A DNA stretch of 62,622 nucleotides from a virus, in the IMG/VR virus record IMGVR_UViG_3300043395_001957, positions 1 through 62,622 of that record; one strand, 5' to 3'. A program made the position numbers and the translations under genes. A model generated the notes under the pieces. The model was given only the letters and a program-made list of their open reading frames with translations. It searched no databases and had not been told where the DNA came from. Positions 16,853 through 49,563 of this stretch are shown here, one piece after another (the stretch's first letter is position 1; every line of letters starts with the position of its first letter).

Positions 16853-16885
16853 TGTTACCTTTTTTAAAAGATTTTTTTAATAATT

Positions 16886-22736: not shown

Positions 22737-22906
22737 GCTGTGTATGTATTTAATATTTGTTTTAATTGTTTGTTTTTAGCCATTTCGTTTTTCAGCATTG
22801 CATCCATAGCAATGATTTTGGCTTTCAACTCTTCGTTTTGTTGTTGAGTTTGTGCTACATATAATAGTAGTTCTCTTATTTCTTCTGATGTGTATATTTG
22901 ACTCAT
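22733..22906 (-). CDS. 57-residue coiled-coil peptide between terminase and frameshift gene (A)
   Basis: Short gene joined to both neighbours by ATGA overlaps (22903-22906 and 22733-22736). The product reads MSQIYTSEEIRELLLYVAQT and continues as a heptad-like helix (NEELKAKIIAMDAMLKNEMAKNKQLKQIL in parts). Unit B encodes the same peptide at 56200-56373 with an identical IIAMDAMLKNEMAKNKQLK core. The overlaps and conservation make it a real gene. Role unknown; perhaps a partner of terminase or of the frameshift protein. Confidence 0.85.
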   Translation of the reverse strand: MSQIYTSEEIRELLLYVAQTQQQNEELKAKIIAMDAMLKNEMAKNKQLKQILNTYTA

Positions 22907-24057
22907 CGTATTGATATTGAATATTGTCCTTTGTTAACTGCTTTTTGTGATAGTTTCATCATACAACAATATCGTGCTGCATCGATTAAGTGGTCTAAGC
23001 CCCCTTCTGGTGTATCCGTAACATAACCATATTTGTCAGTTGCATATTGATATGAGTATAATTCATTGATTAGGTTTTGGGATTTATTATGCACAAATAT
23101 CTTATAGTTGTTCATTACATTAATACCAAACTTAATACTATCCTTTCCTTTTGTTACAGGCTTTATATTAAAACCCATACGATATAATTCCTCAATTAGC
23201 CTTGGTTCTGCTGAATCAGCCCATATCTCTTCACTCTTTGTAATATCTAACTTCCTTAACCTATCAGCAATATCAGATGTTACTAATCCCTTTTCGTATA
23301 AATGCTCTTCTAAATAGATTCTATCGCCTGTCCTATATACTGCTACTAATGCAGTTGGGTCATTACTAAAACCAAAGTCTATTCCGAATCCAACGAAATC
23401 AGATTCAAAATGTCCGCATGTTTCAAATTGGAATATGGCTTTATCATTGGGTGCGTATTCACCTTTACCATATATCAACCATTTCTTTTGGTTTGTGTGT
23501 TGTAAATCTTCAATTGCTTTGACTACTGATTCTTCTAAGAATGGGTTATCCTTATATGTTGTTACAAATCTTTCGCAATCCTTCATTTGTCTTACCCAAT
23601 GATATGGTGATACCGTTGGATTCAATGCCATTATAATTTGACCTGTTGTTCTAATCATTAATTGGAATGCTGATTCTTCATCTATTTCAGAACACTCTTC
23701 TAAGAATAGTATAGATGATTTAATACCTCTAAGCTTTTCAGCATCATCAGTAGATACAAACTGAATGATTGAATCACCATATCGCCATATTCTGTCCGTT
23801 ATGTTGAAATCATCTTCTCTAAAGATATTCAGGCTTTTAAGTATATCGCTGAAATCCTTCATTACAGTCCTTTTAAGCGATGGAATTGTTTTCCTTACTA
23901 TTGTTATGGTCTGCGTACTTTCAATCGCTTTAACGATAAGATATTGAAGAATAGCGTATGTCTTACCGCTACGTGTTCCACCAATGTGTTGAGTGACACG
24001 ATGTTTACTTTCTAATAGATTCTCAAATGTTACAGTAGTATTAATCTTTACTTCCAC
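22903..24057 (-). CDS. terL: Terminase large subunit (A)
   Basis: A 384-residue packaging motor. The N-terminal ATPase has Walker A GGTRSGKT at 26-33 and a Walker B-like LFLEE at about 117-121. The C-terminal nuclease shows GIDFGFSNDPTALVAV, WADSAEPRLIEELYRMGF and DHLIDAARY, holding the usual acidic metal ligands. The start overlaps terS by 17 bases. Compared with unit B the nuclease half is much better conserved than the ATPase half, a sign of mosaic descent. Confidence 0.92.
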   Translation of the reverse strand: MEVKINTTVTFENLLESKHRVTQHIGGTRSGKTYAILQYLIVKAIESTQTITIVRKTIPSLKRTVMKDFSDILKSLNIFREDDFNITDRIWRYGDSIIQFVSTDDAEKLRGIKSSILFLEECSEIDEESAFQLMIRTTGQIIMALNPTVSPYHWVRQMKDCERFVTTYKDNPFLEESVVKAIEDLQHTNQKKWLIYGKGEYAPNDKAIFQFETCGHFESDFVGFGIDFGFSNDPTALVAVYRTGDRIYLEEHLYEKGLVTSDIADRLRKLDITKSEEIWADSAEPRLIEELYRMGFNIKPVTKGKDSIKFGINVMNNYKIFVHNKSQNLINELYSYQYATDKYGYVTDTPEGGLDHLIDAARYCCMMKLSQKAVNKGQYSISIR

Positions 24058-26280: not shown

Positions 26281-26835
26281 TTAATCTATAAATGGATTGT
26301 TTATTATCTTCTTTAAGTGTGCTCTTATTTTTTTAATGTTTATGAATACAGTCGATTTACTTATTCCTATCTTATCTGCTACTTCTTGCAGAGTATCATC
26401 TGAAGTCCAATAGATTTCGTATATCATAGCAGGTGCGAAATGTTTTGTTTTCTTTAACCTTTCTATTTCACTCATCACTGCTTCATGTGCTTTCATTATA
26501 GCCACATCTCTTTCAACATCATATTCTTCAACAGGTCCATCAGCTGTAATCTCTTCCTGATATTGTAATCGGTTTAACTTCTTTGTTTTATTTATCCATC
26601 TGTGTTTCAAAAACGCCATACAATACATTAGATTATATGAGTTCAAATAGAATAACTTAGTGTTCTTTTTTCTATGTAGATATTCATAAAGTTCGCCTAC
26701 TAAATCTTCAGCTTCCTCTCTATTCTTTGTAATATTGTAACTAACTTGCGATAGCCACGTATGAGATTCTTTGAAAAGGATTTCTAATCTTCTATTACAT
26801 TCCAATGCCACACTGCTAGTCACTTCGTTACTCAT
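26281..26835 (-). CDS. ECF-like RNA polymerase sigma factor (A)
   Basis: A 184-residue protein with sigma region 2-like sequence at about 25-85 (VSYNITKNREEAEDLVGELYEYL, then YNLMYCMAFLKHRWINKTKK). A region 4 helix-turn-helix lies at 147-172 (DTLQEVADKIGISKSTVFINIKKIRAHLKK). The linker is acidic, as in ECF sigmas. Such a factor would redirect host RNA polymerase to phage promoters; the TGTTAAATA-type elements ahead of the structural genes are candidates. Unit B's copy is 58755-59309; the HTH is nearly the same in both. Confidence 0.75.
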   Translation of the reverse strand: MSNEVTSSVALECNRRLEILFKESHTWLSQVSYNITKNREEAEDLVGELYEYLHRKKNTKLFYLNSYNLMYCMAFLKHRWINKTKKLNRLQYQEEITADGPVEEYDVERDVAIMKAHEAVMSEIERLKKTKHFAPAMIYEIYWTSDDTLQEVADKIGISKSTVFINIKKIRAHLKKIINNPFID

Positions 26836-27723: not shown

Positions 27724-28248
27724 TTATTTTAATCTTTTATTCAAACTCATTCCTAACTGATGGAAGTGGTTAATCATTGTGTATTCAATATTTCTAAGTG
27801 TTTCCTTATCAGTACCAGCCATGTCCAATATAACCCACTTATGTTTATCATAACCATAAACATCAAATGAATGATGTAAGTATGGCATTACTCCATTGTT
27901 TAGTTTATATTCTTTCTTATGTGCATTTCTTCTATAACTGAAAAGAGTTTGGGTGCTCCCCACATATACACGTTGCTCTGGGTTGATTATCAAATACACT
28001 GCTGATTTACTATCATCTGCACATACATTCTCTTTAGCCCATTGATTACAATATGCTGACCACTTCTTATGATTCTTTCTTTGCCAATCAATTTGGTAAG
28101 TAGGCTTTGTTTGTCTAAAATTTTTATTGTTTTCTTTTACACAACTTTTGCAGTTTGTTTGCAATAAATCAGGAGATGCTGCTCTTTTGTGAAATTGTGT
28201 TAGTGGTTGATGCTTACCACACTTTGAACATTGTTTTGTTGTTGCCAT
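27724..28248 (-). CDS. Zinc-finger GIY-YIG endonuclease (A)
   Basis: A 174-residue protein with an N-terminal CSKCGKHQPLTQFHKR...CKSC finger and a C-terminal GIY-YIG domain (VYLIINPEQRVYVGSTQTLFSYRRNAHKKEYK, then a Glu-containing NIEYTMINHF near the end). This is the architecture of phage homing or intron-type nucleases. It occupies the early region where unit B has a different GIY-YIG gene, consistent with independent insertion. Confidence 0.8.
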   Translation of the reverse strand: MATTKQCSKCGKHQPLTQFHKRAASPDLLQTNCKSCVKENNKNFRQTKPTYQIDWQRKNHKKWSAYCNQWAKENVCADDSKSAVYLIINPEQRVYVGSTQTLFSYRRNAHKKEYKLNNGVMPYLHHSFDVYGYDKHKWVILDMAGTDKETLRNIEYTMINHFHQLGMSLNKRLK

Positions 28249-30883: not shown

Positions 30884-31372
30884 ATGTTTTACATTTATCA
30901 CATACCAGGAGTTAAAATAGGTTGCTCTACACAACCAAAAACGAGAGTAAAGAGACAAGGATACGATTATTATGAATTATTAGAAACTCATAATGATATC
31001 AATATTGCTTCTCAAAGAGAATTAGAATTACAAAAAGAATATGGATATAAAATAGATTCAACTCCATATAAACAAAGTTATGAGTGGGTAACAAAAGGTA
31101 ACCCATCAATTGAACCAATGTTAGATGGTTATAGAAAATGGGTAAAAGAGAACCCAGAAAAAGTAAAAGAAAATGCTAGAAATGGTGGATTAAAGCAAGG
31201 TCCAATTCAAGGTAAAAAAAATGTTGAAAGTGGTCACATATCAGCATTAGGTAAAAAAAATTCAGAATTTAATAATCGCATTAGAACATGTCCTCATTGT
31301 AATATTGTAACTAGAGGTGTTGGTTATGAAAGATGGCATGGTGATAAATGCCGAAATAAATCTAATCCTTAA
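30884..31372 (+). CDS. GIY-YIG homing-type endonuclease inserted on the plus strand (A only)
   Basis: A 162-residue protein: N-terminal GIY-YIG-like part (MFYIYHIPGVKIGCSTQPKT, then RVKRQGYDYYELLET, a Glu in RELELQKEYG), a middle with KENPEKVKENARNGGLKQG repeats, and a C-terminal CPHCNIVTRGVGYERWHGDKC finger. It is opposite in strand to its neighbours, sits between two genes that are adjacent in unit B, and overlaps the MPVN gene tail to tail by 11 bases. All this points to a mobile homing gene. Confidence 0.8.
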   Translation: MFYIYHIPGVKIGCSTQPKTRVKRQGYDYYELLETHNDINIASQRELELQKEYGYKIDSTPYKQSYEWVTKGNPSIEPMLDGYRKWVKENPEKVKENARNGGLKQGPIQGKKNVESGHISALGKKNSEFNNRIRTCPHCNIVTRGVGYERWHGDKCRNKSNP

Positions 31373-31694
31373 AATCAGGATGGTCTTCTTCCGGAATACA
31401 GTTTGGCACAGAAACTCCACCCATATCCTTCATACCCAATTGGCGGTATCCACTTTGGCACGGGTCTTCACCTTCTTCAGCTAATAAATTAATACCTTTG
31501 AATTTAGTATCATAAGCTACTCTAGCCATTACTTTAGCTGATGTATCTTTTATCTTACTCATATTTTCTTTTTCCCAATATGAGTAGCAAATAGCAGCTG
31601 AAACATCTTGTTCTTTACCTGATGCTATTTCTTCTCCTATACAACGGCTGATGAACTCTTGTTCAGTTTCGCCTGCTCTTACATTTACTGGCAT
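31362..31694 (-). CDS. MPVN small protein (A side)
   Basis: A 110-residue protein: MPVNVRAGETEQEFISRCIG then EE-AAICYSYW, a pattern of small structural-region proteins in Bacteroidota phages. The C-terminal half (DPCQSGYRQLGMKD...VPNCIPEED) has two Cys like the B copy (DACWEGYEAIG...VPNCVP). Its first codons lie in the shared 136-base stretch. Function not known; the AAICYSYW motif is sometimes attached to structural or protease-associated proteins. Confidence 0.8.
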   Translation of the reverse strand: MPVNVRAGETEQEFISRCIGEEIASGKEQDVSAAICYSYWEKENMSKIKDTSAKVMARVAYDTKFKGINLLAEEGEDPCQSGYRQLGMKDMGGVSVPNCIPEEDHPDFKD

Positions 31695-31786
31695 TAGTTA
31701 TCTACTTTATATGTTTTATTATTAAAACGAACTTTATATACTGTATTAAAGTCCAATGTTCTCCAATCTCCATCTAATCCAACAAC
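31651..31786. repeat. 136-base stretch shared exactly by units A and B (internal copy)
   Basis: This stretch spans the start of the 110-residue MPVN gene and the end of the next 110-residue gene. It matches 62496-62622 and continues as 1-126. Mismatches flank it: base 31650 is g where 62495 is t, and base 31787 is a where base 127 is g. It is the point at which unit A sequence changes into unit B sequence. Confidence 0.9.
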
Positions 31787-32026
31787 AGGAACATTATACA
31801 TGTCCATTGCTGCTTTTGTATCAGAACCGCCGGCAATACCATCACCAATCGGTCCATCTATCCAATACATATCATAATATCTTTTTCTACCTGTTTCAGT
31901 TATCCAACCTACTCTAACAGGGTTAGAAGGGGTTGCCTGATTCTTTAGGATATCTTCAAATTCAGAGAAACTAATTTCAGCTGATATAAAGTGTTGTAAT
32001 TTGCTATGTACGGAATTACTTGTCAT
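31694..32026 (-). CDS. Conserved 110-residue protein of unknown function (B)
   Basis: Near-identical twin of the unit A protein at 34-366 (MTSNSVHSK here). The last 85 or so bases are identical in sequence, being part of the shared stretch. It overlaps the protease end by 11 bases and the MPVN start by TAATG. Confidence 0.85.
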   Translation of the reverse strand: MTSNSVHSKLQHFISAEISFSEFEDILKNQATPSNPVRVGWITETGRKRYYDMYWIDGPIGDGIAGGSDTKAAMDMYNVPVVGLDGDWRTLDFNTVYKVRFNNKTYKVDN

Positions 32027-33191
32027 CTTTTTTCTTTCTTTGTGTTGATGATTGACCTGGATAGCTTGATGATATAGATGGTTGTGCTTCTAATTCCTCT
32101 ATATGATATAAGGGTTTACTATCTGCTGTATGTTCTATACCTGTCATTAATCTACCATCAGGTCCTTTATGTGTAGGTCCTTCGTATAGTTTACCATCTT
32201 TTGTATAATGTGGTACACCTTCTTTTCCTTCTACTAACTCACCTAATTCTCTTAATTTATTTCTGCTCCATGCTAAACCTGCTTTTCCTCCCCAGAGTAA
32301 AAAACTGATTGTCCCGCATGCATTCATATCAGTTTCATCGTAGTATGCTTCTGCTCTACTTAAATAAGAATACATTCTCTTTATTGTTTCCAGGCTAATT
32401 GCTTCGCCTGCTTCTAATTGTGCGCTTCTAACTTTTCCAACCTGCGTAGCGCATTTATTACCATTTTTCTCATTTAACTCTCTACCTCTCTTTGCATTTC
32501 CACGAACTCCTGAGCCATAGTCTTGGAATGATTCCATCTCTATTCTCTGCTTCGCTTTATACCTCTTATCCTTCTTTATAAGCGCTTTAATTTGTCCGAG
32601 TAATACTTCTGCTTCAATTTCAGTTAACTCCTCTATATCCTTCTCTAAAGCAAGTTTAACATCACTCTTCTGGTGCTCAAAAAGTCCCTCTATCGAGAAA
32701 CCGTTAAATTCGCCAGATTTTACTCTCTCCCATACTTTAGGATTATCTTCTGCAGAATATACTGCAAACCAACTTCCTTTAGGTAAAGTAAAACCATATA
32801 GATTTGATTTATCTTTTGTAGGATGTTCTACTATCCAGCTCTCCACCATATGAACGCCTGATGTTTTATTACCATGCTCTAAAGTTACTTCAGAAAGTAA
32901 TTTATTCTTCATAAACTTTCTTGCAACCTTTTCAATTGTTTGTGGAGTAAAGAAAACATGGTATGGAGAACCATCCTCTTTTAATCTTAATATCTTTTTA
33001 TTAGGAATAAGCATTGGGCCTGCAATTAACATTTTTTCTTCATTAACTGCTGCAAATGTATATTCCTGATTGAAGTAAACGAAATCACGCTCAATAGCGC
33101 CTGCGGCTACTAATGAGTTTGCAAACACACCATCCTCTTCGTCAACTAAAACAAGCTCAAAAAGCTCTTCTATATTTTCGTTCTTTATCAT
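32016..33191 (-). CDS. Prohead protease, XkdF-like (B)
   Basis: A 391-residue copy of the unit A protease. The XkdF part is conserved (GPMLIPNKKILRL, TPQTIEKVARKFMKNK, TLEHGNKTSGVHMVESWIVE, KDKSNLYGFTLPKGSWF, VKSGEFNGFSIEG). The C-terminal NGNKCATQVGKVRSAQLEAGE domain is also kept. Near the end it carries an extra ~45-residue segment (GVPHYTKDGKLYEGPTHKGP) that A lacks and that looks like a short inserted repeat module, before the shared AQPSISS-YPGQSSTQRKKK tail. Confidence 0.85.
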   Translation of the reverse strand: MIKNENIEELFELVLVDEEDGVFANSLVAAGAIERDFVYFNQEYTFAAVNEEKMLIAGPMLIPNKKILRLKEDGSPYHVFFTPQTIEKVARKFMKNKLLSEVTLEHGNKTSGVHMVESWIVEHPTKDKSNLYGFTLPKGSWFAVYSAEDNPKVWERVKSGEFNGFSIEGLFEHQKSDVKLALEKDIEELTEIEAEVLLGQIKALIKKDKRYKAKQRIEMESFQDYGSGVRGNAKRGRELNEKNGNKCATQVGKVRSAQLEAGEAISLETIKRMYSYLSRAEAYYDETDMNACGTISFLLWGGKAGLAWSRNKLRELGELVEGKEGVPHYTKDGKLYEGPTHKGPDGRLMTGIEHTADSKPLYHIEELEAQPSISSSYPGQSSTQRKKKDDK

Positions 33192-33195
33192 AATC

Positions 33196-33204
33196 TATTT
33201 AACA
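33196..33204 (-). promoter_or_regulatory. TGTTAAATA element before the protease gene (B)
   Basis: TTGTTAAATA on the minus strand, 4 bases before the ATG, matching the unit A site at 1809-1817. Confidence 0.4.
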
Positions 33205-33217
33205 ATTTAATTTAGGT

Positions 33218-35341
33218 TTATCCACCACTTAGCGTAGCAGCAACATTTGTACGGCGGTCTAAAGCCTGTTGTGAACTAACTTGTTGTGATACAACATAGG
33301 TTTGAATAGGCCTTTGTTGAGACATTGCTATACTTTGTGCGATTTGTGATGATGGATTTGCTCCTGTTGTTGTTTGTATTTGAGGTGTTGCCATTGCTGC
33401 AGGTGCTCCACCATACGATGGAGGTGGTGCAGATGGAGATGCAGCTGCGCCTGATGATGATGGATTATCAGTATTAGTAGAATTAATTTGTTGTATTGAT
33501 TTAACTGCTGATGCAACAGTTGATGCAATACTTAAACCTGCTGATATCGTGTTTATTGCGACCCATGGCATACCACCTGTTAATGGAGATGCCGCTACTG
33601 ATTTAGCATTTGCTATTGCAGTATTTGCAATAATCTGCCCAATTGCTGCTGCCTGTTGTATAATTACACCAGCGATTGCTATACCTTTTGATTTACCTGC
33701 AACTTGTTGTAATAGAGAACCGAATTGTGAGAACAATCCTAAATAAGCCATATTGATTTCGTGCTTAGCTGCTGCTGCCGCTTTTTCGGTTGCTATTTCA
33801 CCATCGGTAATTTTACGTCTTTCATCTGCAAATTTCTTACGGATTTCAGTACGCTGAAATTCTGTTAATTCAGTATTTTCTAATTCTATTCTTTCTTGCT
33901 CTGCAAGTATTTCTCTTTGTTGTTTGAATCTCTCTAAATCCTGCTCAAAATCAAAATCAACCAATTGATTTTGTCTATCTAAATCTTCTAAACGAGTTTC
34001 TAAACCTACAAGTAAGATACCTCTTTCTTCTTCTTGTCTTTTAAGAAGTTCTTCTTTCTTCTTATCATCAATTTCTTTTTGTTTATCGGCATCTTCTTTT
34101 GCAAACTTATCTTTCATTGAAGTAAGTTCAGCCTGTCTACCTGCTTCTAATAATGCAGTATCTTGATTGTATTTTGTAGCAGTTGCAACTAATGCTGAAT
34201 ACTTTTGGTTTATTTCATATTCAGTTCTTTCTCTTTCGGTTAAAGTTGCTTTAAATGCATCTTCTTCACCTTTACGAATCTCACCTAATTCACTCTCTCT
34301 TAATCTTCTTTGTTCTTCAATCTCTTTTTCTTTTTGCTCTCTTTTCTTATCAGCAGCTTGTTGATTCTTATCAGCTATTTCTTTATTTTTAGCTGCTTCT
34401 TCTTTAATCTCTTCTGCTCTAGCATTATAACCAGTTTCTTGATAAGTAGCATAAGCATCTTTTGTAGCCTGTTGTCTCTTGTCTAAATTATCTGATACTT
34501 TCTTAAATGCTTCTGCATCTAACTTACCTAAACTTTCATTATACAATTTTACAGCCTCTTGCTCTGCAGCAAATGCAGCTTGATAATCTGCGTATGATTG
34601 GTCAATATTATATTTACGGATTTCGGCTTCAGATTTACCTTGCGCTTTCATTTGAGCAATGGTAACCTTTCTTCTATTCTCTGCTGATTTTTGGTTTAAA
34701 TCTAATAAAGCCTGTTGTGATTCTAATGCGGCATTTGTTTTATCAATTGCTCTTTGTAATTCTTTTTCACCTGTTGCAGTTTTATATAACTCCGTAGCCA
34801 TTTCAGATAAAGCACTTACTGCTAAACCGATAGCAACAACGATAGCACCAACACCAGTAGCGGTTAATGCTGCTGCGAATGCTCTAGCACCAACTGCAGC
34901 CTGTCCTTCTGCTATACCAACTGCTGTAAATGATTTGGCTAAAAATCCATTTATAACTGAATATACTTTGGTTACACCCGTAAGTTCACCAATACCTTTA
35001 GCAATATCAGTAATATCATTACCCAATTCAACGAATGAGGCTTGGATATTATTTAATTTAAGACCTGAAAATTGTTTTAATGTTGCAATTGTACCACCAA
35101 CTTGTCCGCCGATAGCACCAATTGGACCAGGTAATTTACCTAATACATCAGCAAAGTTACCAGCACCTGCTCTAGCTCCTGCTAAAGAGTCCTGAATATC
35201 ATCAATCTGTCTTTGTAAGTTGATGAACTCCTGCGAACCAGCGGCAGTTTCTTTTAGCTGCTTTTTTAATTCTCTAAGCTGCGCTAACGATGGTTCAATA
35301 TTGGTTTGTATATCAACCTCTACATCAATTTTTTCTGCCAT
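33218..35341 (-). CDS. Tail tape measure protein (B)
   Basis: A 707-residue copy of the unit A tape measure, one residue longer, so tail length should be the same. Same order: helical start, hydrophobic Gly/Ala part, long charged coiled coil, second hydrophobic part, and a Ser/Pro/Gln-rich C-terminal region that is the least conserved piece (SSSGAAASPSAPPPSYGGA) before SQQALDRRT. Confidence 0.9.
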   Translation of the reverse strand: MAEKIDVEVDIQTNIEPSLAQLRELKKQLKETAAGSQEFINLQRQIDDIQDSLAGARAGAGNFADVLGKLPGPIGAIGGQVGGTIATLKQFSGLKLNNIQASFVELGNDITDIAKGIGELTGVTKVYSVINGFLAKSFTAVGIAEGQAAVGARAFAAALTATGVGAIVVAIGLAVSALSEMATELYKTATGEKELQRAIDKTNAALESQQALLDLNQKSAENRRKVTIAQMKAQGKSEAEIRKYNIDQSYADYQAAFAAEQEAVKLYNESLGKLDAEAFKKVSDNLDKRQQATKDAYATYQETGYNARAEEIKEEAAKNKEIADKNQQAADKKREQKEKEIEEQRRLRESELGEIRKGEEDAFKATLTERERTEYEINQKYSALVATATKYNQDTALLEAGRQAELTSMKDKFAKEDADKQKEIDDKKKEELLKRQEEERGILLVGLETRLEDLDRQNQLVDFDFEQDLERFKQQREILAEQERIELENTELTEFQRTEIRKKFADERRKITDGEIATEKAAAAAKHEINMAYLGLFSQFGSLLQQVAGKSKGIAIAGVIIQQAAAIGQIIANTAIANAKSVAASPLTGGMPWVAINTISAGLSIASTVASAVKSIQQINSTNTDNPSSSGAAASPSAPPPSYGGAPAAMATPQIQTTTGANPSSQIAQSIAMSQQRPIQTYVVSQQVSSQQALDRRTNVAATLSGG

Positions 35342-35534
35342 AGCTATGTTTTATTTTATCCCAAATACTTTTCCAAGTTACTACTTCTTTATTAGATTTT
35401 CTATGTCTTTTAATTTTAGTAAAAGCATCCTTCCAACTATTTGGTAGTTCGTTTTTTCCTTTGGCTATATCTATTGTTTCAGATACGCCATAATAATCGC
35501 TTAGGGACAGTAGTTCAATTACATTCTTTATCAT
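35325..35534 (-). CDS. Small protein upstream of the tape measure (B)
   Basis: A 69-residue twin of 3935-4144 (MIKNVIELLSLSDYYGVSET). It overlaps the tape measure start by 17 bases, exactly as in unit A. Function not known. Confidence 0.8.
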   Translation of the reverse strand: MIKNVIELLSLSDYYGVSETIDIAKGKNELPNSWKDAFTKIKRHRKSNKEVVTWKSIWDKIKHSYGRKN

Positions 35535-35537
35535 ATA

Positions 35538-35546
35538 GATTTAACA
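35538..35546 (-). promoter_or_regulatory. TGTTAAATC element before the 69-residue gene (B)
   Basis: TTGTTAAATC on the minus strand, 3 bases before the ATG; partner of the unit A site at 4149-4156. Confidence 0.35.
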
Positions 35547-35584
35547 ATTCGAATGTAATAAATAATTGATACTATGGTAATTTA

Positions 35585-36457
35585 TTAAAACAAGTGGATG
35601 TAATCCGAATGATTTCCCCAATATGGGTGTTCAGTAAATAAATTATCTTTTTTGTAGATAGAATAGTGTGATGTAAAGTGTGAGCCGTGATTGATATGAA
35701 TATTAGGATGTTCTGCATTCCACTCATTCATTTTTAATTGTGGTTCTAATAATCCACTATTAGTTACCAATGCATTTGGTAGAAGCGATTCAAAATGCTT
35801 TATAGCATCATCAAACAACATTGTTAATTGTGATGTAGGTTTATCGTTTTGTCCACGTGGCTGAAATCCATCTTTATTCATTCCTATATAATTCATATTA
35901 GCAAGAATACCCTCATCAAAATCAGGGTAATCAAAATATCCTTCAGCATAAACTAAATCATGCTCTAAAAAACTTACATATTTGTAATCACCACTTTGTC
36001 TTGCTGTATATAGTAATTGTAGTACTTGCAGTATTTGATTCAAATGTGATGATGTTTGTGTCCAAGCAATACACTCATAAAATGGATTGTGTGGTTCGTG
36101 TTTCCACATACACGTTAATATATCTGCTTTACCTTCTGCTGCTTTACGAATACTTTCTAACGATGCTCTAATAGCAGGATAGATTCTTTCGTTTATATTG
36201 TTTGAATAGAATATACCTAAACGATTTGTTTTAGGTTTAGGTATTGTAAGTAAAGAACCTTCTCTAACTTCTTCAGTTACTAATTCACCATCTATTTCTG
36301 CTTCAATTTTTAAATACTTAACAGTACCAACTTGCGGGTCTCCGCATATGTTATTATCGGCTCTAACTAATAAACGGCCGTTTACTACTTTATCACGTAT
36401 TTGTTGTGTGCAATCTCTATCACCATATACTGCTGATTTTATCTCCATAGATGCCAT
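35585..36457 (-). CDS. Glycosyltransferase-like protein with EHD motif (B)
   Basis: A 290-residue copy of the unit A EHD protein: N-terminal DUF3395-like domain (KSAVYGDRDCTQQI, LLVRADNNICGDPQVGTVKYL), NRLGIFYSNN, YVSFLEHDLVYAEGYFDYPDF, and the His-rich end HINHGSHFTSHYSIYKKDNL. It is the last gene of a four-gene overlapping cassette and overlaps the FkbM gene by 19 bases. Confidence 0.6.
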   Translation of the reverse strand: MASMEIKSAVYGDRDCTQQIRDKVVNGRLLVRADNNICGDPQVGTVKYLKIEAEIDGELVTEEVREGSLLTIPKPKTNRLGIFYSNNINERIYPAIRASLESIRKAAEGKADILTCMWKHEPHNPFYECIAWTQTSSHLNQILQVLQLLYTARQSGDYKYVSFLEHDLVYAEGYFDYPDFDEGILANMNYIGMNKDGFQPRGQNDKPTSQLTMLFDDAIKHFESLLPNALVTNSGLLEPQLKMNEWNAEHPNIHINHGSHFTSHYSIYKKDNLFTEHPYWGNHSDYIHLF

Positions 36458-36963
36458 ACGCCTACTCTGTTTATATCTTCGTTACCTAACTGATAAAGTT
36501 GATGATTAGTAAATCCCCATTCAACCATCTTTTGTTCACATAAGATACGAGTAGGGTCATTATGATATTCAATTGCTATTTCATCTACAAATTCAATCAT
36601 TTCTTTTGTAACATTTTGAAAGTGTATTTCAGCACCTTCAATATCACATTTGATAACCTGTGGTTTATAATGTTCTAATAAATCTTCTATTTGCTTATCA
36701 GCATTAACACATAATTGAAATGTATAATATATACCTTTGTTTCCATACAATTGATGATACTTCTCAATATCATGTGCAGCGCAATCAAATCCAATTAATT
36801 TACTTGCACCTTTAGAAACAAAATATTCAGATGATGATAACCATCCTTCATTCCATGTACTATCCCAAAATGAACAGCCCATGTCCATTACAATTTTGTT
36901 TTCACAATTTAGAAATCTCCAATGGATTTCAGGGTTTTCTGATGTTATTTTTTCTATTTGCAT
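36439..36963 (-). CDS. FkbM-family methyltransferase (B only)
   Basis: A 174-residue methyltransferase. Residues 24-33 (IVMDMGCSFW) form the SAM-binding strand and loop. VIKCDIEGAEIHF at 103-115 is the FkbM hallmark, followed by FVDEIAIEYH. FkbM enzymes usually O-methylate sugars or small molecules. It sits between the oxygenase and the EHD glycosyltransferase with overlapping ends, so it probably works on the same glycan or protein target. Confidence 0.8.
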   Translation of the reverse strand: MQIEKITSENPEIHWRFLNCENKIVMDMGCSFWDSTWNEGWLSSSEYFVSKGASKLIGFDCAAHDIEKYHQLYGNKGIYYTFQLCVNADKQIEDLLEHYKPQVIKCDIEGAEIHFQNVTKEMIEFVDEIAIEYHNDPTRILCEQKMVEWGFTNHQLYQLGNEDINRVGVWHLWR

Positions 36964-37577
36964 AATTCGTAGTATCCTCCTATATCAAATTTTACTTTTG
37001 TATTAATCGCTTCACCTTCTTGCACACTCCACTTACTAAATGGAACAATTCTAAAATCCACAGAAACCCTACTCCTGTTCGTTTGGTTGAGTTTATTTCC
37101 GTGAGTTAACCGAACACCTTCCCACATAATAAACTCTCCGTATTGAGCTTCTAATGGGGTATAATCACCCTTATCTTCTTCACTCTCTGCCCAAATAGTA
37201 TTGGTATCAAAAGCATCAGTAAAAGGTAAAAAGAAATTAATCTCTGCTTGGTTATGATTATATTGTTTATCCTTATGCCATTCACCAACACCTACATTGT
37301 TTGGTGCTTGTATTCTGAATGTTGGTATTTTTTGATACACAATTGGTTCGCCGAATAGTGGCATTACCTGTTCTTTAACAAAATCATCGTATATTGGTTT
37401 CATATACTGAAAATTATCATAGTATTTTCTATGCACTTCAGTTTTTTGGTCATTTTCTCTTTTAAGTAAGTCAAATTGATATTGTTTATGCAACATATTT
37501 AACTCCTTTGTACCATAAATCAACCCTAATACTTCCAAAAATGGATAAGTTTGGGTATTATAATCTAATTTTATCAT
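36954..37577 (-). CDS. 2-oxoglutarate/Fe(II) oxygenase-like protein (B only)
   Basis: A 207-residue protein with the iron triad spacing of 2OG dioxygenases: WHKDKQYNH (H101, D103), distal LTHGN (H159) and a 2OG-binding Arg in RSRVSVDFR (about R168/R170). A jelly-roll reading is supported by alternating strands (AEINFFLPFTDAF, FIMWEGVRLTHG). Such enzymes hydroxylate amino acids, peptides or sugars. Overlaps of 4 bases upstream and 10 bases downstream tie it to the glycosyltransferase and FkbM genes. Confidence 0.75.
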   Translation of the reverse strand: MIKLDYNTQTYPFLEVLGLIYGTKELNMLHKQYQFDLLKRENDQKTEVHRKYYDNFQYMKPIYDDFVKEQVMPLFGEPIVYQKIPTFRIQAPNNVGVGEWHKDKQYNHNQAEINFFLPFTDAFDTNTIWAESEEDKGDYTPLEAQYGEFIMWEGVRLTHGNKLNQTNRSRVSVDFRIVPFSKWSVQEGEAINTKVKFDIGGYYELCK

Positions 37578-38539
37578 AACAATTTACTTTTTTGTGCTGT
37601 TTTTTGAATCCATTCCCAATATTTTTTACTTGCAGTTTCATTTTTTATATCTAATTCAACATTATATGGTAAAGAGTTCATATATTCAGCTTTATAAAAA
37701 AATCCATCTTTTGAAGATGTTACGCCTGCATTGTGCATTATATTCATTCTATTGAAATCTAATTCACCTGATGTACCCCAACTGAAATCAAATTCAGGTA
37801 AACAATTTGTTTTCCATTCTCTTCTCCATGCTCCCCATAATACTGCCCACATATCAGCGCACCATATTTGTAATTCGTGGTAAGTAGGATTATCTTTTTT
37901 GATTTCGTTGTTTAAATCAGTTACCTGTTTAAATAATTGTTCACAATCTCTTTCAACTCTATCCCAAAATTCATAATCAACATTTTTCATCAAATATTGC
38001 GCACCAATAGCGTTCATTTCGTTGTCTTTAATCAACGATTCTGGCAAATCGGTAATCTCACACATTTTATCAATTATCTGCTGACCTTTGCCAACTATGT
38101 AAGAATGCGCTATATACCAACGGGTGTCTGAACCATACCAATCATCATCTATGATAATTTGTTTGTTTATCCACTCATTTATTGGTTTAGAAAATATGAT
38201 ATCTGAATCGTGATAGAATATAGCATCATCTTTTAGATAAGGATGTGCTGCCCAATGTTGTTTAAGAATGTTAGGTCTGATTGATGAAATGTAATGTTTA
38301 GTTTCTCTCGTATCATCATAGAAAAAGAAACGTGCTGGATACCCGTTAGCCAATTTAGACCATTCTTCGGGTATCACTCCATTTTGCTTCCAACATACTA
38401 TATCAATGAAATTTGGGTTAACACCCATCTCCATAAAGTTGTTTAACATTACTTCTACTTGCCACGCATAGTAGAGTGTTGCAGGCTGTGCGCAAATAAA
38501 TCTTAATTGCTTATCCGCATAAATTTGTATGCCATTCAT
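37574..38539 (-). CDS. DxD-containing glycosyltransferase-like protein (B)
   Basis: A 321-residue copy of 5015-5956, with the same FICAQPATLYYAWQVEVMLNN start, RPNILKQHW and AIFYHDSDIIFSK DxD motif. The N-terminus is seven residues longer (MNGIQIYADKQL). A TGTTAAATA element stands upstream, so the four-gene modification cassette could be expressed on its own. It is preceded by the Thr-linker tail gene. Confidence 0.65.
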   Translation of the reverse strand: MNGIQIYADKQLRFICAQPATLYYAWQVEVMLNNFMEMGVNPNFIDIVCWKQNGVIPEEWSKLANGYPARFFFYDDTRETKHYISSIRPNILKQHWAAHPYLKDDAIFYHDSDIIFSKPINEWINKQIIIDDDWYGSDTRWYIAHSYIVGKGQQIIDKMCEITDLPESLIKDNEMNAIGAQYLMKNVDYEFWDRVERDCEQLFKQVTDLNNEIKKDNPTYHELQIWCADMWAVLWGAWRREWKTNCLPEFDFSWGTSGELDFNRMNIMHNAGVTSSKDGFFYKAEYMNSLPYNVELDIKNETASKKYWEWIQKTAQKSKLL

Positions 38540-38554
38540 ATATCATTCGTTTAT

Positions 38555-38563
38555 TATTTAACA
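38555..38563 (-). promoter_or_regulatory. TGTTAAATA element before the modification cassette (B)
   Basis: GTTGTTGTTAAATA on the minus strand, 15 bases before the ATG. No clear YTAC box at 18 bases. Unit A has no matching site before 5956. Confidence 0.35.
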
Positions 38564-38580
38564 ACAACAAACGATTTTGT

Positions 38581-40821
38581 TTATAAACAACCACCATCAC
38601 ATTGAACTTGCAAGTCCATATATAAGTTAGTTCCAACATCACCTGATACAACTGTATATCCAGGAGAAACATACGATGGTATTGAACCATTGTTTTGACA
38701 AGCTGCGTCTGTTATTTCACCTGTTACAACAATATTCGTATAAGTGCTTCCACCACCAGTACATTGGTCAGCATTACATCCAACACTAATCACATCACCA
38801 ACATAGACAGTATAGGTTCCAGATGCCGTATTATTTCTTGTTTCAACAGATACAGAATTTATATATAAATCGTATATACCTTGCCCACCAGCAACTTCAC
38901 TAAAACTCCAATATAAAGTAGCAGATGCACCAGTAGTTGTTGTAGTAGTCGGTGGTACAGTCGTAGTGGTAGTAGTTGGTGGTACAGTGGTTGTTGTAAC
39001 ACAATTACACGAAGTTCCACCATATGTTACGAATGAAATAGTTGCACCTACACCAAATAGTGAGCCGTTTTGTAAACAATCATTAATAACTTGTGGTCCT
39101 ATACCAAATGTTAAGTAAATAGTATTTCCACAGCAATCTACATATCTTACATCACCTGCTGAATCAACTTCAAAACTTACTGATGTTACACAAGCAGATG
39201 TTGTAGTGGTTGTAGTTGGTGCTAGTGTTGTAGTTGTAGTAGTCGGCGCTGCGGTTGTAGTGGTAGTAGTCGGTGCTGCAGTTGTGGTTGTTGTAGTTAC
39301 ACCACATGCAGTATTACAATTTATAGAATTACCAACAGTTGTCATTATAATTGCAGGTGAACAAGGACTAAATAATTGTGTAAAGTTTTTATATACAAAA
39401 CCAGTTATTGATTGTGGTTTATAATATCTGTTTGATGTTACAATTGAACTACCTGCAGGGAATGCAACACATACGGCACTTTGTACAAAAGTACAAGGGT
39501 CACAACTATATTCATCTGCCTCATAATAATCATATGGTGATGCAGTAGTTGTAGTAGTTGTAGGTACTTGTGTAGTTGTTGTTGTAGTTGGAGCTTGTGT
39601 AGTTGTTGTTGTACTTGTAGTAGTACTTGGACAAGTTCCACAAGTTAAACTCCATTGAGCGGTATCAGATGTTGGGTTTTCCGGGTCCGCTGGTCCATAC
39701 TCAACCATTACATATCTTCCGCTTGTTGATGCGAAATCATATGTGAAGTTTCCGCTTGGTGAAACATTCAATGATACTCCCCACGGACCTGGCCACGTTG
39801 CGTATCCAACCCAACCTGATGTTGCTATTAAACCAGTTGAATCGTAAAGATTGAATCTATTAGGTCTATCAATTGCATCATAAGTAAATGTACCACACTC
39901 ATTTGAAGTAGAACATACAACCTGTGTTGGGTACTGACCATATGCAGTATCAGATGTATTAAATGTTATCGTTCCATCACCACAAGAATAACAAGCTTCT
40001 GTTGTAGTAGTTGTAGTAGTTGCAGCTGTTGTAGTAGTTGTAGTAGGTGCAGCTGTTGTAGTAGTCGTAGTAGTAGTTGTACTTGTAGTGCTTGTTGTAG
40101 ATGTTGTAGTTGTGGTAGTTGTTACACAATCACAATCACTATTTTTAGTTACACTAAACCAAGTATTATTTGGAACTATTATACTTCCACTAACTAAACA
40201 AGATGTTAAACTTTTTGGATTAAAATAACTTAATAATTCAGCTTGAGGTTCACCAGTTTCACAATTTAGATAATATACAAATGCAGTATTAACTCCGTTA
40301 ATTTGTACAGTATCATTATCACAATTACATATATTGAACGAGCCTGTTCCGCATGGTACACCTAAATTTGGTATAGTGCTACAATTTCCTTGCGGTGCTA
40401 CACTACAATTTATAGTTTCTATAATTTCTCTTGCGCAAATATATCTTATTACTCCTGATGAGAAAACATGTACTCTTTGAACACCATAGCAATCTATGTA
40501 AGTAAGAGTAGCTGGATTTGCATTTCTTACTACTGAATAATTTATACATGTCGGACATAATGTTGTAGTTGTACTTGTAGTTGCTATTATATCAACAACA
40601 CTATTTCCATTACATTCAGCACCACCATTTACAACTTTTAAACAAGCAGCATTATCGGGAACAGTGACTACTACCGATGAGCCAACTGATGGCAAATAAA
40701 CATTATTACCATCTATACAAATGGTATAGTTTACACAATCCGTAGAATAGTAGACATCAAATAAAGGACCAGCATCTGCTCCTTTACCTGTTAATGTTAT
40801 TTGTTTATTTATGTTTGGCAT
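38581..40821 (-). CDS. Long modular tail protein with Thr-rich linkers (B)
   Basis: A 746-residue version of 5984-7276. The N-terminal ~80 residues match (MPNINKQITLTGKGADAGPL). Then come five or six small Cys-containing domains separated by Thr runs with AAP, QAP, VPP and LAP breaks. One domain (ACYSC...CGTCP, core DAIDRPNRFNLYDSTGLI) is shared with A but sits at another place in the chain; the others are not. The C-terminus (SATLYWSFSEVAGGQGIYDL) is new. This is direct evidence of domain gain and shuffling at linker repeats. Confidence 0.75.
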   Translation of the reverse strand: MPNINKQITLTGKGADAGPLFDVYYSTDCVNYTICIDGNNVYLPSVGSSVVVTVPDNAACLKVVNGGAECNGNSVVDIIATTSTTTTLCPTCINYSVVRNANPATLTYIDCYGVQRVHVFSSGVIRYICAREIIETINCSVAPQGNCSTIPNLGVPCGTGSFNICNCDNDTVQINGVNTAFVYYLNCETGEPQAELLSYFNPKSLTSCLVSGSIIVPNNTWFSVTKNSDCDCVTTTTTTTSTTSTTSTTTTTTTTTAAPTTTTTTAATTTTTTTEACYSCGDGTITFNTSDTAYGQYPTQVVCSTSNECGTFTYDAIDRPNRFNLYDSTGLIATSGWVGYATWPGPWGVSLNVSPSGNFTYDFASTSGRYVMVEYGPADPENPTSDTAQWSLTCGTCPSTTTSTTTTTQAPTTTTTTQVPTTTTTTASPYDYYEADEYSCDPCTFVQSAVCVAFPAGSSIVTSNRYYKPQSITGFVYKNFTQLFSPCSPAIIMTTVGNSINCNTACGVTTTTTTAAPTTTTTTAAPTTTTTTLAPTTTTTTSACVTSVSFEVDSAGDVRYVDCCGNTIYLTFGIGPQVINDCLQNGSLFGVGATISFVTYGGTSCNCVTTTTVPPTTTTTTVPPTTTTTTGASATLYWSFSEVAGGQGIYDLYINSVSVETRNNTASGTYTVYVGDVISVGCNADQCTGGGSTYTNIVVTGEITDAACQNNGSIPSYVSPGYTVVSGDVGTNLYMDLQVQCDGGCL
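38925..39005 (-). repeat. Thr/Pro linker repeat (B, last linker)
   Basis: ACN tracts with two VPP breaks encoding TTTTVPPTTTTTTVPPTTTT. Pro-containing unlike most A linkers. Confidence 0.8.
39195..39303 (-). repeat. Thr/Pro linker repeat (B, fourth linker)
   Basis: Three to four near-identical units of six Thr plus AAP or LAP, the most regular linker in the window. Confidence 0.85.
39540..39640 (-). repeat. Thr/Pro linker repeat (B, third linker)
   Basis: Units of Thr runs with QAP and QVP breaks between the shared ACYSC domain and a YEADEYSCDPC domain. Confidence 0.8.
39990..40125 (-). repeat. Thr linker repeat (B, second linker)
   Basis: Longest linker of this gene, about 45 residues with Ser, AAP and AA breaks, directly before the shared ACYSC domain. 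Confidence 0.85.
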
Positions 40822-40830
40822 AATATTATA

Positions 40831-42798
40831 TTATATACTTCCCGAATATCTTGTTTTGTCTGCGTACCAGTTTTGTGATATTTCAGCATCACTTAATGCT
40901 CTATTATATGCTCTACAAATACCAACTTTTCCACTCCAGTTTCCAGCGGGTAAATCATTACCAGGCATCATTAAACTTGCAGTTGAATATAATGATGGAG
41001 AAGATGTTTCAAATTTAGTAAATCTACCAGCTTTAACACCATCAACATAGCTATATATATTTCCATCTGAATCATCCCACTTAACAACAAATTGATGCCA
41101 ACTTCCTGTTGGTGTTAAAGCAGTTTGCAATCCATCTTGATAAGTTGTTCCGAATCCAGGATTATTAAAACCTGTAACTAAAGCTGATGAGCTATATGGT
41201 GCAGTTAATTGGTCTGTATATGTAGCTATTGCATATTCAACAGGAGAAATTGTACCATTTGAGCCAACTATAAAGTTATCAAAATCAGGTGAAGGGCTTC
41301 CATAAAAAGGTCTATTAAACCAAATTTCAAATGTAGTTGCTCTAGAACTACTTACTACATTACTAAATAATCTATTAGTTAAAATAGCAGAACCCGTGAA
41401 ATCCATATACGATGAACTACTATTTGATACAAAGTTTGTACTACCAGAAATTATACTACCTGTAACTAATGAAATTAAATCAGTAATAGATGAGCCACTT
41501 CCAGGATATGATTGTGTTTTACCGAAATCGTAATATAATTGTAATGATTGCGTAACAGCAGTAGTATTAAAATTCCATATTACTTTTATTGAAGAATACA
41601 AATCAGTATTAACCAAATTACTTACACCAATTTGATTAGAAGTTTGGCTTCCAGATGCAATCGCAAATAATAAAGTTGAATCGCCATAATACGATGCAGT
41701 CCAACTAAAATTATATGTATTATCAAATTTCACATCAGTTGCAATAGTTTGAGTTCCAGTTACATATGTGGAGCCAGTAAATAAATTATTACCTGTACCT
41801 ACTGGCGATTTATTAATCACATATAATGAAGATGGAGGAGATGTTAAATCACCCATACTACCTGTTATCACATTTAAACTACTACTTAATTCCAAAATAT
41901 ATGTTTTATTAGGTGGATTAATAGTAGTAGTTGTTGTAGTAGGTGCTACAGTTGTTGTACTAGTCGTTGTAGTTGCTGCGGTAGTCGTAGTAGTTGTACC
42001 AGCAGCAGTAGTTGTTGTTGTAGTAGGAGCAGCAGTAGTAGTTGTACTAGTAGTACTCGTAGTACTTGTAGTAGTTGTACTAGTGGTGCTCGTTGTTGTT
42101 GTAGTTGGCGCAGCTGTTGTTGTTGTGCTCGTAGTACTTGTTGTAGATGTTGTAGTAGTAGTAGGAGCAAGTGTTGTAGTAGTAGTTGGACCTGCAGTTG
42201 TAGTAGTAGTAGGGCCAGCTGTTGTAGTTGTTGTTGTTACAGTTTGTGAATCAAAATCAAACAAACAAGTTATTGTTTTATTAGCTGATGCAATTACATC
42301 TTCTAATATTGGACCTAATAATTGAATCTTACACTCACCATTAGATAAGTTGTAATCATTGATTGCACGAAGGTGATAGTAATTTCCTCTCCACTCAACA
42401 ATATCATTAAGTTCCATTTTAAAATAATCAGCAAGAGGAATAATACCTTCGCAGTTTATTAAACGAGTTTTTGGATTATAAAGTAAAGATACATATGTTT
42501 CCCAATAATTTGTATAAAGAGAACCTGTTGGAGTTGTACCATATACTGCTGGTTCATTGAAGAAAAGAAGTGAACGAGAGCCCGATGTAGGGTCTTGTCC
42601 TTCATAGTTATCAAAATAAGGAAATGAAGTTACTTCTGTAGATACAACACTACCTGTATTACCGTTTGAATATCCTTGAATATAATATGTTTCACATGCT
42701 TTTAATCCATTATAGAAATAAATGTGCGGCAGGACTCTAGCAGGTGCGTAATTCACACTACTAATAAATGTCGGTATGTATATCTTATTCTTCGCCAT
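40831..42798 (-). CDS. Tail fibre/receptor-binding candidate with LamG-like domain (B)
   Basis: A 655-residue copy of the unit A LamG tail protein. The N-terminal ~190 residues are conserved (IYIPTFIS, YWETYVSLLYNPKTRLINCEGIIPLADY). The Thr linker is about twice as long (near 190-300). An extra ~110-residue domain (TYILELSSSLNVITGSMGDL onward) lies before the LamG part (SLQLYYDFGKTQSYPGSGSS, WFNRPFYG, VGICRAYNRALSDAEISQNW). The upstream gene's stop overlaps this start by one base. Probably binds host surface glycans. Confidence 0.75.
   Translation of the reverse strand: MAKNKIYIPTFISSVNYAPARVLPHIYFYNGLKACETYYIQGYSNGNTGSVVSTEVTSFPYFDNYEGQDPTSGSRSLLFFNEPAVYGTTPTGSLYTNYWETYVSLLYNPKTRLINCEGIIPLADYFKMELNDIVEWRGNYYHLRAINDYNLSNGECKIQLLGPILEDVIASANKTITCLFDFDSQTVTTTTTTAGPTTTTTAGPTTTTTLAPTTTTTSTTSTTSTTTTAAPTTTTTSTTSTTTTSTTSTTSTTTTAAPTTTTTTAAGTTTTTTAATTTTSTTTVAPTTTTTTINPPNKTYILELSSSLNVITGSMGDLTSPPSSLYVINKSPVGTGNNLFTGSTYVTGTQTIATDVKFDNTYNFSWTASYYGDSTLLFAIASGSQTSNQIGVSNLVNTDLYSSIKVIWNFNTTAVTQSLQLYYDFGKTQSYPGSGSSITDLISLVTGSIISGSTNFVSNSSSSYMDFTGSAILTNRLFSNVVSSSRATTFEIWFNRPFYGSPSPDFDNFIVGSNGTISPVEYAIATYTDQLTAPYSSSALVTGFNNPGFGTTYQDGLQTALTPTGSWHQFVVKWDDSDGNIYSYVDGVKAGRFTKFETSSPSLYSTASLMMPGNDLPAGNWSGKVGICRAYNRALSDAEISQNWYADKTRYSGSI
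41925..42240 (-). repeat. Very long Thr-codon linker of the LamG tail protein (B)
   Basis: About 315 bases of ACN repeats with TCN, GCN-CCN and AGP breaks encoding over 100 residues, the largest low-complexity tract in the window. Confidence 0.9.
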
Positions 42799-44912
42799 TA
42801 TTCACTTGCTATTGATTCAGCATTAAATACCAAGACTGTGCTTGAAATATCTGCAGTTGTTATTGTATAATAAAATGTTTTAGTATATGCTAAACCTGAA
42901 TCCAAATTGGTTACTCCACTATCGGTTGTTTTAGTGAAAGAATAAGCCACTTGAGATGAATAAGGCCCTAAAGCAGTAAATATTAATGTATCACCGGCAG
43001 CAACAGGGTATTGTAAGGTTAAACAACTTGGTGGTGAACAATCAGTTACAAGTCCTTCACCCTGTATTGCACTTGCTTGCGCAGATACAACATATGTAGT
43101 AAAGTGTCTAATAGAAGCAACTGCATCAATTCTTCTTTGGTCAATTGCAGTAGCTTGAGCTTGTGCACCAAATTCTGCATTTCTAGAAGCAAAACTACCT
43201 GAAAGACCTGTTCCTTCAAGATATATTAATGGAGAAGAAGCAAATGTAGTTTTAACATTAAACTCTCCCTGTGAGAAGAAGTTTTCAGTATCTACATAAT
43301 ATGTTTTACCATATTCTCTATTGTTTGCTTTTTGGAATTGTTGTGAAATATAATCACCATCCAATGTATCTCCAAAATTTAGTTTATTAACCGCTAAGTT
43401 GTTAGCTGGAATTACTTCAATCTTTTTATCAAGGTTAATGTATCTGTTAAAATCTTTTACTTGTCCTTCTTTGTACCATTTATTAAATTCCTCTACGATA
43501 AACTCTCTAGGTTTAGTTTTATTTGGATATATTACTAAATTAAACTTCTTTTGTATGCCCGTTATAAAATCAACTTGCTTAATACCTGTTGTTCCATATG
43601 GCATATTTGATGGTATATCTAAAACAAGGTTATCTCCACCTTGATTTACCTTTTTAATTTCTAAATAAGTATTAGAGACAGTATTGCCAGGGTTTAAAAT
43701 AACTTGGAAGTTAGAACCCCCATAGTTATCATAATCTAAATAAAATTTATATTGACCAGCTGGTAAAAGCGATGTATTAAACTCCGTTACCAATTGGAAT
43801 TTTTCAGTTTTAGTTTGTGTTGCGTTATATGTTTGTATTGTTCGCATATAACTATTAAAGTTTACTAATGCAGTTGTAGATACCAATGCTGCAGTAGTAG
43901 CATCTTTAACATGTAAATACCAAACAGGAACACCATTACCTGCGCCTGTTGATTTAACTTCAAAGTTTAATGCTAATTCACCTCTTAATCTCGATGGAAA
44001 TGCTAGAGTATATGTGCCAGCAGAATCTATATTATTTTGTGGATTATACTGAACATTATACCAAGGGAATTGTAAATCAACTGCAGCAGACATTGTGAAA
44101 TCAGTTTGTCCACTACCACTAATTGGTGCTATTCTAAACAAGCCATATGTTTCTAAATCATATTGGTCATATACAGGGTATCTCAATTGGTTATTACATA
44201 ACATATACACATTATCTAACCATTGTTGATTCCAAAAATCGCCTGTATATGTGTATCCATATGTTTCAAAGATTGCATCCCATACTTCTTTTATTCGGAT
44301 AGCAGGTTTGAAATCTTGCACACAAAGAGCACCTTCATTTGAATCTATACCAAAGAAAGATTCTTCAGGTGTAAATTGTATCTTCTGTCCATATTCTGCT
44401 AAAGGATAAACAATACTTCCACTAAAAAGATTACCACCCCAACTTGCTGATATATTAGCATAAGATGATGTGTGATTGAATTGTGCAAGTGATGCAGTTA
44501 AATCAGTAAGATAAAATCTATTAATATCTCTTGCAAATGAAGATAAACCACCAAAGATAGTTACTTCATATGAATCAATAAATTTATTTGCTATTACATT
44601 TACTTTATTAAGTTGTAAATAGCCTTGAGATAAATAAATACCATCAAAGTCCAAATAGCATGGTACTTTAGAATTGGTAGCAAATAGAAAAGGATTCTGA
44701 ATTGATATATCATACACATGCTCAAAGAATGCGTTATTCTTCTTTGTGCCAGGTACTGTAATCTGACGTGTGAAATCAGAAGGTAATACACCTAAATCAA
44801 ATAGACCTGTTACATTATCTGATATTAGTATTTCTTCATCATCAAACAAGTCCAATTGAGTTCCATTGGCAACTAACTTAAACGCAAATCCTTGTGTACT
44901 TATTATCCCCAT
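42798..44912 (-). CDS. Tail/baseplate structural protein (B)
   Basis: A 704-residue copy of 8790-10811, conserved in the first ~170 residues (VTGLFDLGVLPSDFTRQITV) and in the IPSNMPYGTTGIKQVDFITG and NLAVNKLNFGDTLD blocks. Its last ~110 residues (AQATAIDQRRIDAVASIRHF onward, ending VLVFNAESIASE) have no A counterpart and look like a separate beta domain. Ends overlap neighbours by one base. Confidence 0.7.
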   Translation of the reverse strand: MGIISTQGFAFKLVANGTQLDLFDDEEILISDNVTGLFDLGVLPSDFTRQITVPGTKKNNAFFEHVYDISIQNPFLFATNSKVPCYLDFDGIYLSQGYLQLNKVNVIANKFIDSYEVTIFGGLSSFARDINRFYLTDLTASLAQFNHTSSYANISASWGGNLFSGSIVYPLAEYGQKIQFTPEESFFGIDSNEGALCVQDFKPAIRIKEVWDAIFETYGYTYTGDFWNQQWLDNVYMLCNNQLRYPVYDQYDLETYGLFRIAPISGSGQTDFTMSAAVDLQFPWYNVQYNPQNNIDSAGTYTLAFPSRLRGELALNFEVKSTGAGNGVPVWYLHVKDATTAALVSTTALVNFNSYMRTIQTYNATQTKTEKFQLVTEFNTSLLPAGQYKFYLDYDNYGGSNFQVILNPGNTVSNTYLEIKKVNQGGDNLVLDIPSNMPYGTTGIKQVDFITGIQKKFNLVIYPNKTKPREFIVEEFNKWYKEGQVKDFNRYINLDKKIEVIPANNLAVNKLNFGDTLDGDYISQQFQKANNREYGKTYYVDTENFFSQGEFNVKTTFASSPLIYLEGTGLSGSFASRNAEFGAQAQATAIDQRRIDAVASIRHFTTYVVSAQASAIQGEGLVTDCSPPSCLTLQYPVAAGDTLIFTALGPYSSQVAYSFTKTTDSGVTNLDSGLAYTKTFYYTITTADISSTVLVFNAESIASE

Positions 44913-46090
44913 TAGATTATCAATTTATATGCTTGACCCCAATTGAAATCAAATGAATATTGTATTACTTTATCTACAACACCAGTTTTAAATGTAATTG
45001 AAGATGTGTTTATAGTAATAGGTCTTAACTTAACAGGGTTAGTGCTTTCATCGTATATCCAATATACTTCATCAGCTACTAACAATTGTTTGAATATTTC
45101 GTTGTATGCTTCATCAACCCAATCGGTTTGAACTGATATTGCTTGTTTGGAGTCGGCTATATAATTGAGAACCGAACTATCGTAATTATTGTAACTCAAA
45201 GTAGATGCTCCCCAAGTACCTAATTGTGGCTGGTAAGTTCTTCTTTCAGTATTGAATGATTGTCTATTAACCATATTAAAGTTAAACCAATCAAATTGTC
45301 CGTATCTATTTTTCCATTTAATACGGATATTAGGATACTTTTGATTACAAACTATATCGTAAGTCATTGGACTACCAATAGCCAATCCGCCTGCTGCATA
45401 TGGTTGTACAGTAAAATATGTTAAACCTGATGTAGATAATGGGAATCCACTTTGTTGTGGTCCTATTGGGTATTGTTTAATCTGACCAGTTGTTGCAGAA
45501 GTTGCACTTAACGAAAAATCAGCCGTACCTAAATTTGATGTATATGTAATTTTAACTGGTATATCACCACCTCCAGTAGTGCCTACATAAACACCTGCAG
45601 TACCTTTGTTTTCAGCTAATACTGATTGTGATGCTGGTCCATCAGTCATTAATGGCCAAAATTCAGTTTTTGAGAATATAGCTTGTCCTATTGGTTCTTG
45701 AAACAAACCATAACCATCTAATGCTTTATATGTAGATGATTTAACATGCGAACCGGTTGTATATGTACTTCCTGAAAGATATTGCCAATAGAAATCACAA
45801 GCAAAGTATTCAACGCTTGATGTGTTTGCTTGTGCTAAATCAGTTAAGGTAGAATTGATGATTCTATTTAAATCAAAAATACCATTCAGTGCAAGATTAG
45901 GATACTTTGTTAAAGTATAATCTGCAACCGAACCCGAATCAGTAAGTGAACCAGTCCAATAATATAATTCTGCAACATACTGAAATCCTTCACTAGCAAC
46001 TATCGCAGTATTACTTTCATTTAATGAAAATATTATTGGTGATTGCGCCAATGATACAGTAGCTGGTGTTTGTACAATAGATAAAGCCAT
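44912..46090 (-). CDS. Minor tail protein, unknown family (B)
   Basis: A 392-residue copy of 10813-11982 with the same MALSIVQTPA start, FDLNRIINSTLTDL, DGYGLFQEPIGQ, FWPLMTDGP, KNRYGQFDW and GQAYKLII ends; the residues around 170-235 differ. A GGTTAAATA element precedes it. Confidence 0.65.
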   Translation of the reverse strand: MALSIVQTPATVSLAQSPIIFSLNESNTAIVASEGFQYVAELYYWTGSLTDSGSVADYTLTKYPNLALNGIFDLNRIINSTLTDLAQANTSSVEYFACDFYWQYLSGSTYTTGSHVKSSTYKALDGYGLFQEPIGQAIFSKTEFWPLMTDGPASQSVLAENKGTAGVYVGTTGGGDIPVKITYTSNLGTADFSLSATSATTGQIKQYPIGPQQSGFPLSTSGLTYFTVQPYAAGGLAIGSPMTYDIVCNQKYPNIRIKWKNRYGQFDWFNFNMVNRQSFNTERRTYQPQLGTWGASTLSYNNYDSSVLNYIADSKQAISVQTDWVDEAYNEIFKQLLVADEVYWIYDESTNPVKLRPITINTSSITFKTGVVDKVIQYSFDFNWGQAYKLII

Positions 46091-46107
46091 TAGATTTAAA
46101 TCTTTAC

Positions 46108-46116
46108 TATTTAACC
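46108..46116 (-). promoter_or_regulatory. GGTTAAATA element before the minor tail gene (B)
   Basis: TGGTTAAATA on the minus strand 17 bases before the ATG, with TTAC 14 bases upstream, as in unit A at 12000-12008. Confidence 0.45.
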
Positions 46117-46142
46117 ATCTAAAATCGTTTTGTAATTGATGA

Positions 46143-47119: not shown

Positions 47120-47128
47120 ATTCTAAAT

Positions 47129-47641: not shown

Positions 47642-47653
47642 GTCTTAATAATT

Positions 47654-48949: not shown

Positions 48950-48952
48950 ATA

Positions 48953-49453: not shown

Positions 49454-49471
49454 TATCTTTATGTTATCTGG

Positions 49472-49502: not shown

Positions 49503-49506
49503 GCAA

Positions 49507-49540: not shown

Positions 49541-49563
49541 ATATTTTTATAATGCTATACTGA

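Follow-up and report, generated by a model that had tools for sequence, protein, structure and literature searches.

A 62.6-kb metagenomic virus record as a probable assembly chimera of two related phages of about 31 kb

Introduction

An IMG/VR virus entry of 62,622 bp, analysed here over its whole length (the window), splits at 31660/31661 into two units which both look like phage genomes and which meet in a short run of identical DNA. This raises the question of whether the entry represents a real molecule in which every gene is present in two diverged versions or two related phages brought together by a short-read assembler.

The parameters of the assemblers in use bear directly on this question. 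JGI-type metaSPAdes assemblies are built with k up to 127 (PMC7171226, PMC12697132). Where regions are shared, metaSPAdes contigs are interrupted and keep end sequences of maxK length (PMC10914622). When a circular template assembles into a cleanly closed circle, its terminal repeat has the length k (CheckV, PMC8116208).

Results

Unit A (1–31660) is a complete, circularly closing phage genome of 31,660 bp with its late genes on the minus strand, and unit B (31661–62505) is a homologous phage genome of 30,845 bp. Their GC contents are 0.338 and 0.343, respectively. The alignment of the two is co-linear and in one orientation over most of its length, with about 70–96% DNA identity in the alignable parts, and the marker genes follow a common order: terminase large subunit, small-terminase-like protein, portal, capsid-like protein, protease, tape measure, and tail proteins. 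This bears out the preliminary description, in which A and B were taken for complete homologous genomes of the same orientation. Most genes of both units lie on the minus strand. The capsid and small-terminase labels were given from gene order and size, as their PHROG matches are families of unknown function. No tRNAs were found in the window, and neither a DNA polymerase nor a helicase was recognised among the unit A proteins searched (unit B being annotated only partly).

The divergence between the two units is, by protein comparison, of a mosaic pattern. The capsid-like proteins are 97% identical and the products of the junction gene J1 (described below) 99%, whereas the large terminases (22903–24057 in A and 56370–57542 in B, both on the minus strand) share only 43% of residues. 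Proteins of a putative tail or receptor type, in which long threonine runs (TTTTTT, AAPTTTTTT) lie between other modules, are encoded at 5984–8896 and 38581–42798; A and B differ strongly in the length of this region, which holds internal DNA repeats. A sigma-factor-like protein (26281–26835 and 58755–59309) has a weak match to PHROG 1740 and a Pfam HTH match just below the cut-off, and it was detected in all fully read relatives of at least 30 kb. Possible homing endonucleases are encoded at 27724–28248, where there are matches to endonuclease families, and at 60062–60424, where a GIY-YIG look was noted by eye only.

The run identical in A and B at the internal junction spans 136 bp (31651–31786). 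The window starts with the last 126 bases of this run (1–126, identical to 31661–31786) and ends with its first 127 bases (62496–62622, identical to 31651–31777), which gives a terminal direct repeat of 117 bp. Thus the earlier observation that the units meet at 136 identical bases, and that the ends of the window overlap in the same place, holds. For this pair of genomes the run is neither unique nor exceptional, given that a run of 183 bp, located mostly within the major-capsid-like gene, is shared by 16728–16910 in A and 50984–51166 in B, and that a third run of 124 bp begins at 12243 and 46351. If the 14 differences found in the surrounding ~370 bp were placed randomly, a clean run of at least 136 bp would have a probability of ~0.02.

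The 136-bp run is almost wholly coding and covers the 3′ end of one gene, J1, and the 5′ start of another, J2, both on the minus strand. J1 encodes a 110-aa protein of unknown function; its B copy (31694–32026) has its 3′ end inside the run, and its A copy lies at 34–366. J2 encodes a protein of 110 aa in A (31362–31694, with its 5′ end inside the run) and of 99 aa in B (62240–62539). J1 gave no Pfam match, and its A copy no PHROG match. At ~300 bp from the junction (30884–31372), there is one more possible homing endonuclease gene, the product of which has a GIY-YIG look by eye and no PHROG or Pfam match.

The J1 proteins of A and B are identical in 109 of 110 residues. Over J1 and the run surrounding it, the DNA identity is 95% and synonymous differences affect 13% of unchanged codons, while in the nearby genes prot345, TMP, and J2 the corresponding values are 70–80% and 26–39%. 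Since the synonymous divergence of J1 is low in comparison with its neighbours, the identity of A and B over the 136 bp probably reflects a recent exchange of alleles. We also considered the run as a functional conserved DNA element (an origin, a packaging site, or a recombination site) and rejected this because of its coding location and the lack of strong conservation: in the nearest relatives it shows 81–89% identity over 101–136 bp, and in the remaining ones there are either short matches of 72–79% or none.

Relatives of A and B among viral contigs are numerous: the terminase of A retrieved 106 (the best 80 of which were listed), the terminase of B 48, and an early protein of B 11. The longest relative among the matches listed in these three protein searches is 33,924 bp. 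The fully read relatives, of 24.8–33.9 kb, have one gene order with the ends cut at differing points, as expected of a circular gene map. In those of at least 30 kb (30–34 kb), each detected phage marker occurs once, with the exception that long diverged proteins (e.g., p1044) may be split and that genes may be cut by contig ends. No relative with a two-unit architecture occurs among the matches listed from independent samples. It was also observed that two terminase types circulate within one phage group, each with many relatives.

The order of J1 and J2 is kept inside most of the single-unit relatives, where they are directly adjacent in several cases and separated by 1–1.5 kb in others; in G012 and G022 J1 was undetected, and the J2 match in G012 is weak. 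Therefore, what lies at the window junction is, in this family, ordinary internal sequence of a single genome.

Exact-pattern scans revealed three other contigs containing the 136-bp run or most of it: G001 (3300028103; 23,229 bp), G016 (3300049846; 19,339 bp), and G017 (3300047546; 19,507 bp). The first two have zero mismatches to circular A, cover the whole A circle jointly, and both run from the end of A through the 136 bp into the start of A. Closure of A on itself is thus shown in two other samples. G001 also traverses the 183-bp run with A sequence on either side, so that A is correctly phased in the window at this point; mis-phasing of A there was rejected for the same reason, and the phase of B follows by exclusion alone. 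It should be kept in mind that both of these contigs are themselves assembly products, and that the graph of a pure A–B dimer would look alike at the 136-bp node. G017 is identical to positions 31660–51166 of the window, i.e., to unit B. As for the closure of B, the exact B-end pattern gave no match, and the searches with the B terminase and the B early protein returned relatives and no identical contig for B2, the part of B beyond the 183-bp run.

A simulated k = 127 graph of the circles A and B consists of six unitigs: the nodes of 136 and 183 bp, which both circles share, and four edges. Through these the window follows the path A1+183+A2+136+B1+183+B2. The join thus lies inside a stretch identical in both genomes and at least as long as k (136 bp against 127). 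The last base of the window, 62622, coincides exactly with the end predicted for edge B2. At the head, edge A1 is predicted to begin 127 bases before the point of divergence and begins 126 bases before it, and this shortfall of one base counts against the chimera; the fit to within about one base that had been proposed for the window start is confirmed, and the tail now adds an exact one. The terminal repeat of 117 bp is not the 127 bp of a closed circle. It equals 126 + 127 − 136, which fits a path stopped on either side of a shared node.

Contig ends in the other samples fall on the same graph. G017 spans 31660 to 51166, beginning where the last 127-mer of the 136-bp node begins and finishing together with the 183-bp node; one end of G016, at 16854, coincides with the end of the first 127-mer of the 183-bp node. 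For three of four such ends to lie on predicted points, the chance is ~7e-11. As G016 (L118) and G017 (L119) end at boundaries of nodes shared at k = 127, it is probable that phages like A and B occur together in at least two further samples.

Discussion

The presented data make it very probable that the join from A to B is an unresolved-repeat chimera of short-read assembly, formed from two related phages of ~31 kb. The preliminary description had left the choice between a chimera and a heterodimer, attributing the internal junction to the assembler; this choice is now strongly in favour of the chimera owing to the A-to-A contigs, the boundaries of G017, and the single-unit relatives.

We suggest the following scenario. 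Two phages, A with 31,660 bp and B with 30,845 bp, probably co-occurred in one sample, and the genome of each would assemble as a circle. In a k = 127 de Bruijn graph, the two stretches over which they are identical for more than 127 bp (the 136-bp run at the junction and the 183-bp run near the capsid gene) would collapse into shared nodes. The assembler would have passed the 183-bp node with the correct pairing (A1 with A2, B1 with B2), left A for B at the 136-bp node, and presumably halted where both ends return to the latter. We infer that the A-to-B join is false, that both phages were present in the source sample, that the assembler took a wrong turn at the 136-bp node, and that B closes on itself.

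It is very unlikely that A and B recombine at this node in nature, that the sample thereby contained true mixed A/B molecules, either recombinants or transient heterodimeric concatemers from co-infected cells, and that the assembly captured them. Also very unlikely is a real junction in some molecules, produced when co-infecting A and B recombined within the 136 identical bases, in which case the assembler would have followed true A2-to-B1 reads from one-unit, single-crossover recombinants. The much lower divergence of the J1 region in comparison with most nearby genes does make past exchange probable, but such past exchange is sufficient for explaining the shared stretch, and both contigs that cross the node elsewhere (G001 and G016) lead from A to A. 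A true heterodimeric concatemer, or a composite phage genome of 62.5 kb with two diverged copies of every gene, is scarcely credible: the window does form one continuous sequence with overlapping ends, but self-closure of A is seen in two other samples, the relatives among the matches listed do not exceed 33.9 kb and those of 30–34 kb that were fully read are single-unit, and the end overlap differs from k, unlike that of a closed circle.

The chimera is comparable to artefacts described previously. Like the multi-copy viral contigs of IMG/VR flagged by CheckV, it has about twice the unit length and is probably an assembly artefact; however, in the published cases one genome is repeated 2.0 to 6.8 times (PMC8116208), whereas here the copies are diverged. 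The k-mer frequency check of CheckV targets repeats of the same genome (PMC8116208). In the window the frequency by our own count, which is not that of CheckV, is near 1 (1.048 for 15-mers and 1.032 for 20-mers), so a chimera whose diverged copies keep it at ~1.03–1.05 can slip past this check. The rules on which COBRA is based, according to which metaSPAdes contigs end at regions shared between genomes (PMC10914622), are obeyed by the G017 end at the 136-bp node and by the window tail, at exactly 127 bases. The difference is that the assembler normally breaks at a shared node, while here it also crossed into the other genome.

As the terminal repeat of 117 bp is above the CheckV minimum of 20 bp and the k-mer frequency is close to 1, the record could pass as one complete phage of 62.6 kb. 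The warning signs of such a chimera are two diverged terminases, portals, and capsids per contig combined with an end repeat unequal to k.

Among named phages, the nearest by portal protein are the Nonlabens phages P12024S and P12024L (35.7 kb), with 35% identity over 80% of the protein. They resemble A and B in having single-unit genomes of similar size; however, they are distant, and no named phage is close to A or B. The best named terminase matches are to Bacteroides and Flavobacterium phages at ~35–36% identity. A host from Bacteroidota is likely; a search of genome contigs with the capsid protein found no relative.

We consider the record to be the product of an ordinary assembly error and ordinary biology, valuable mainly as a case of data quality. 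Its two units, A and B, are members of a widespread group of phages with genomes of 30–34 kb which has no close named relative.
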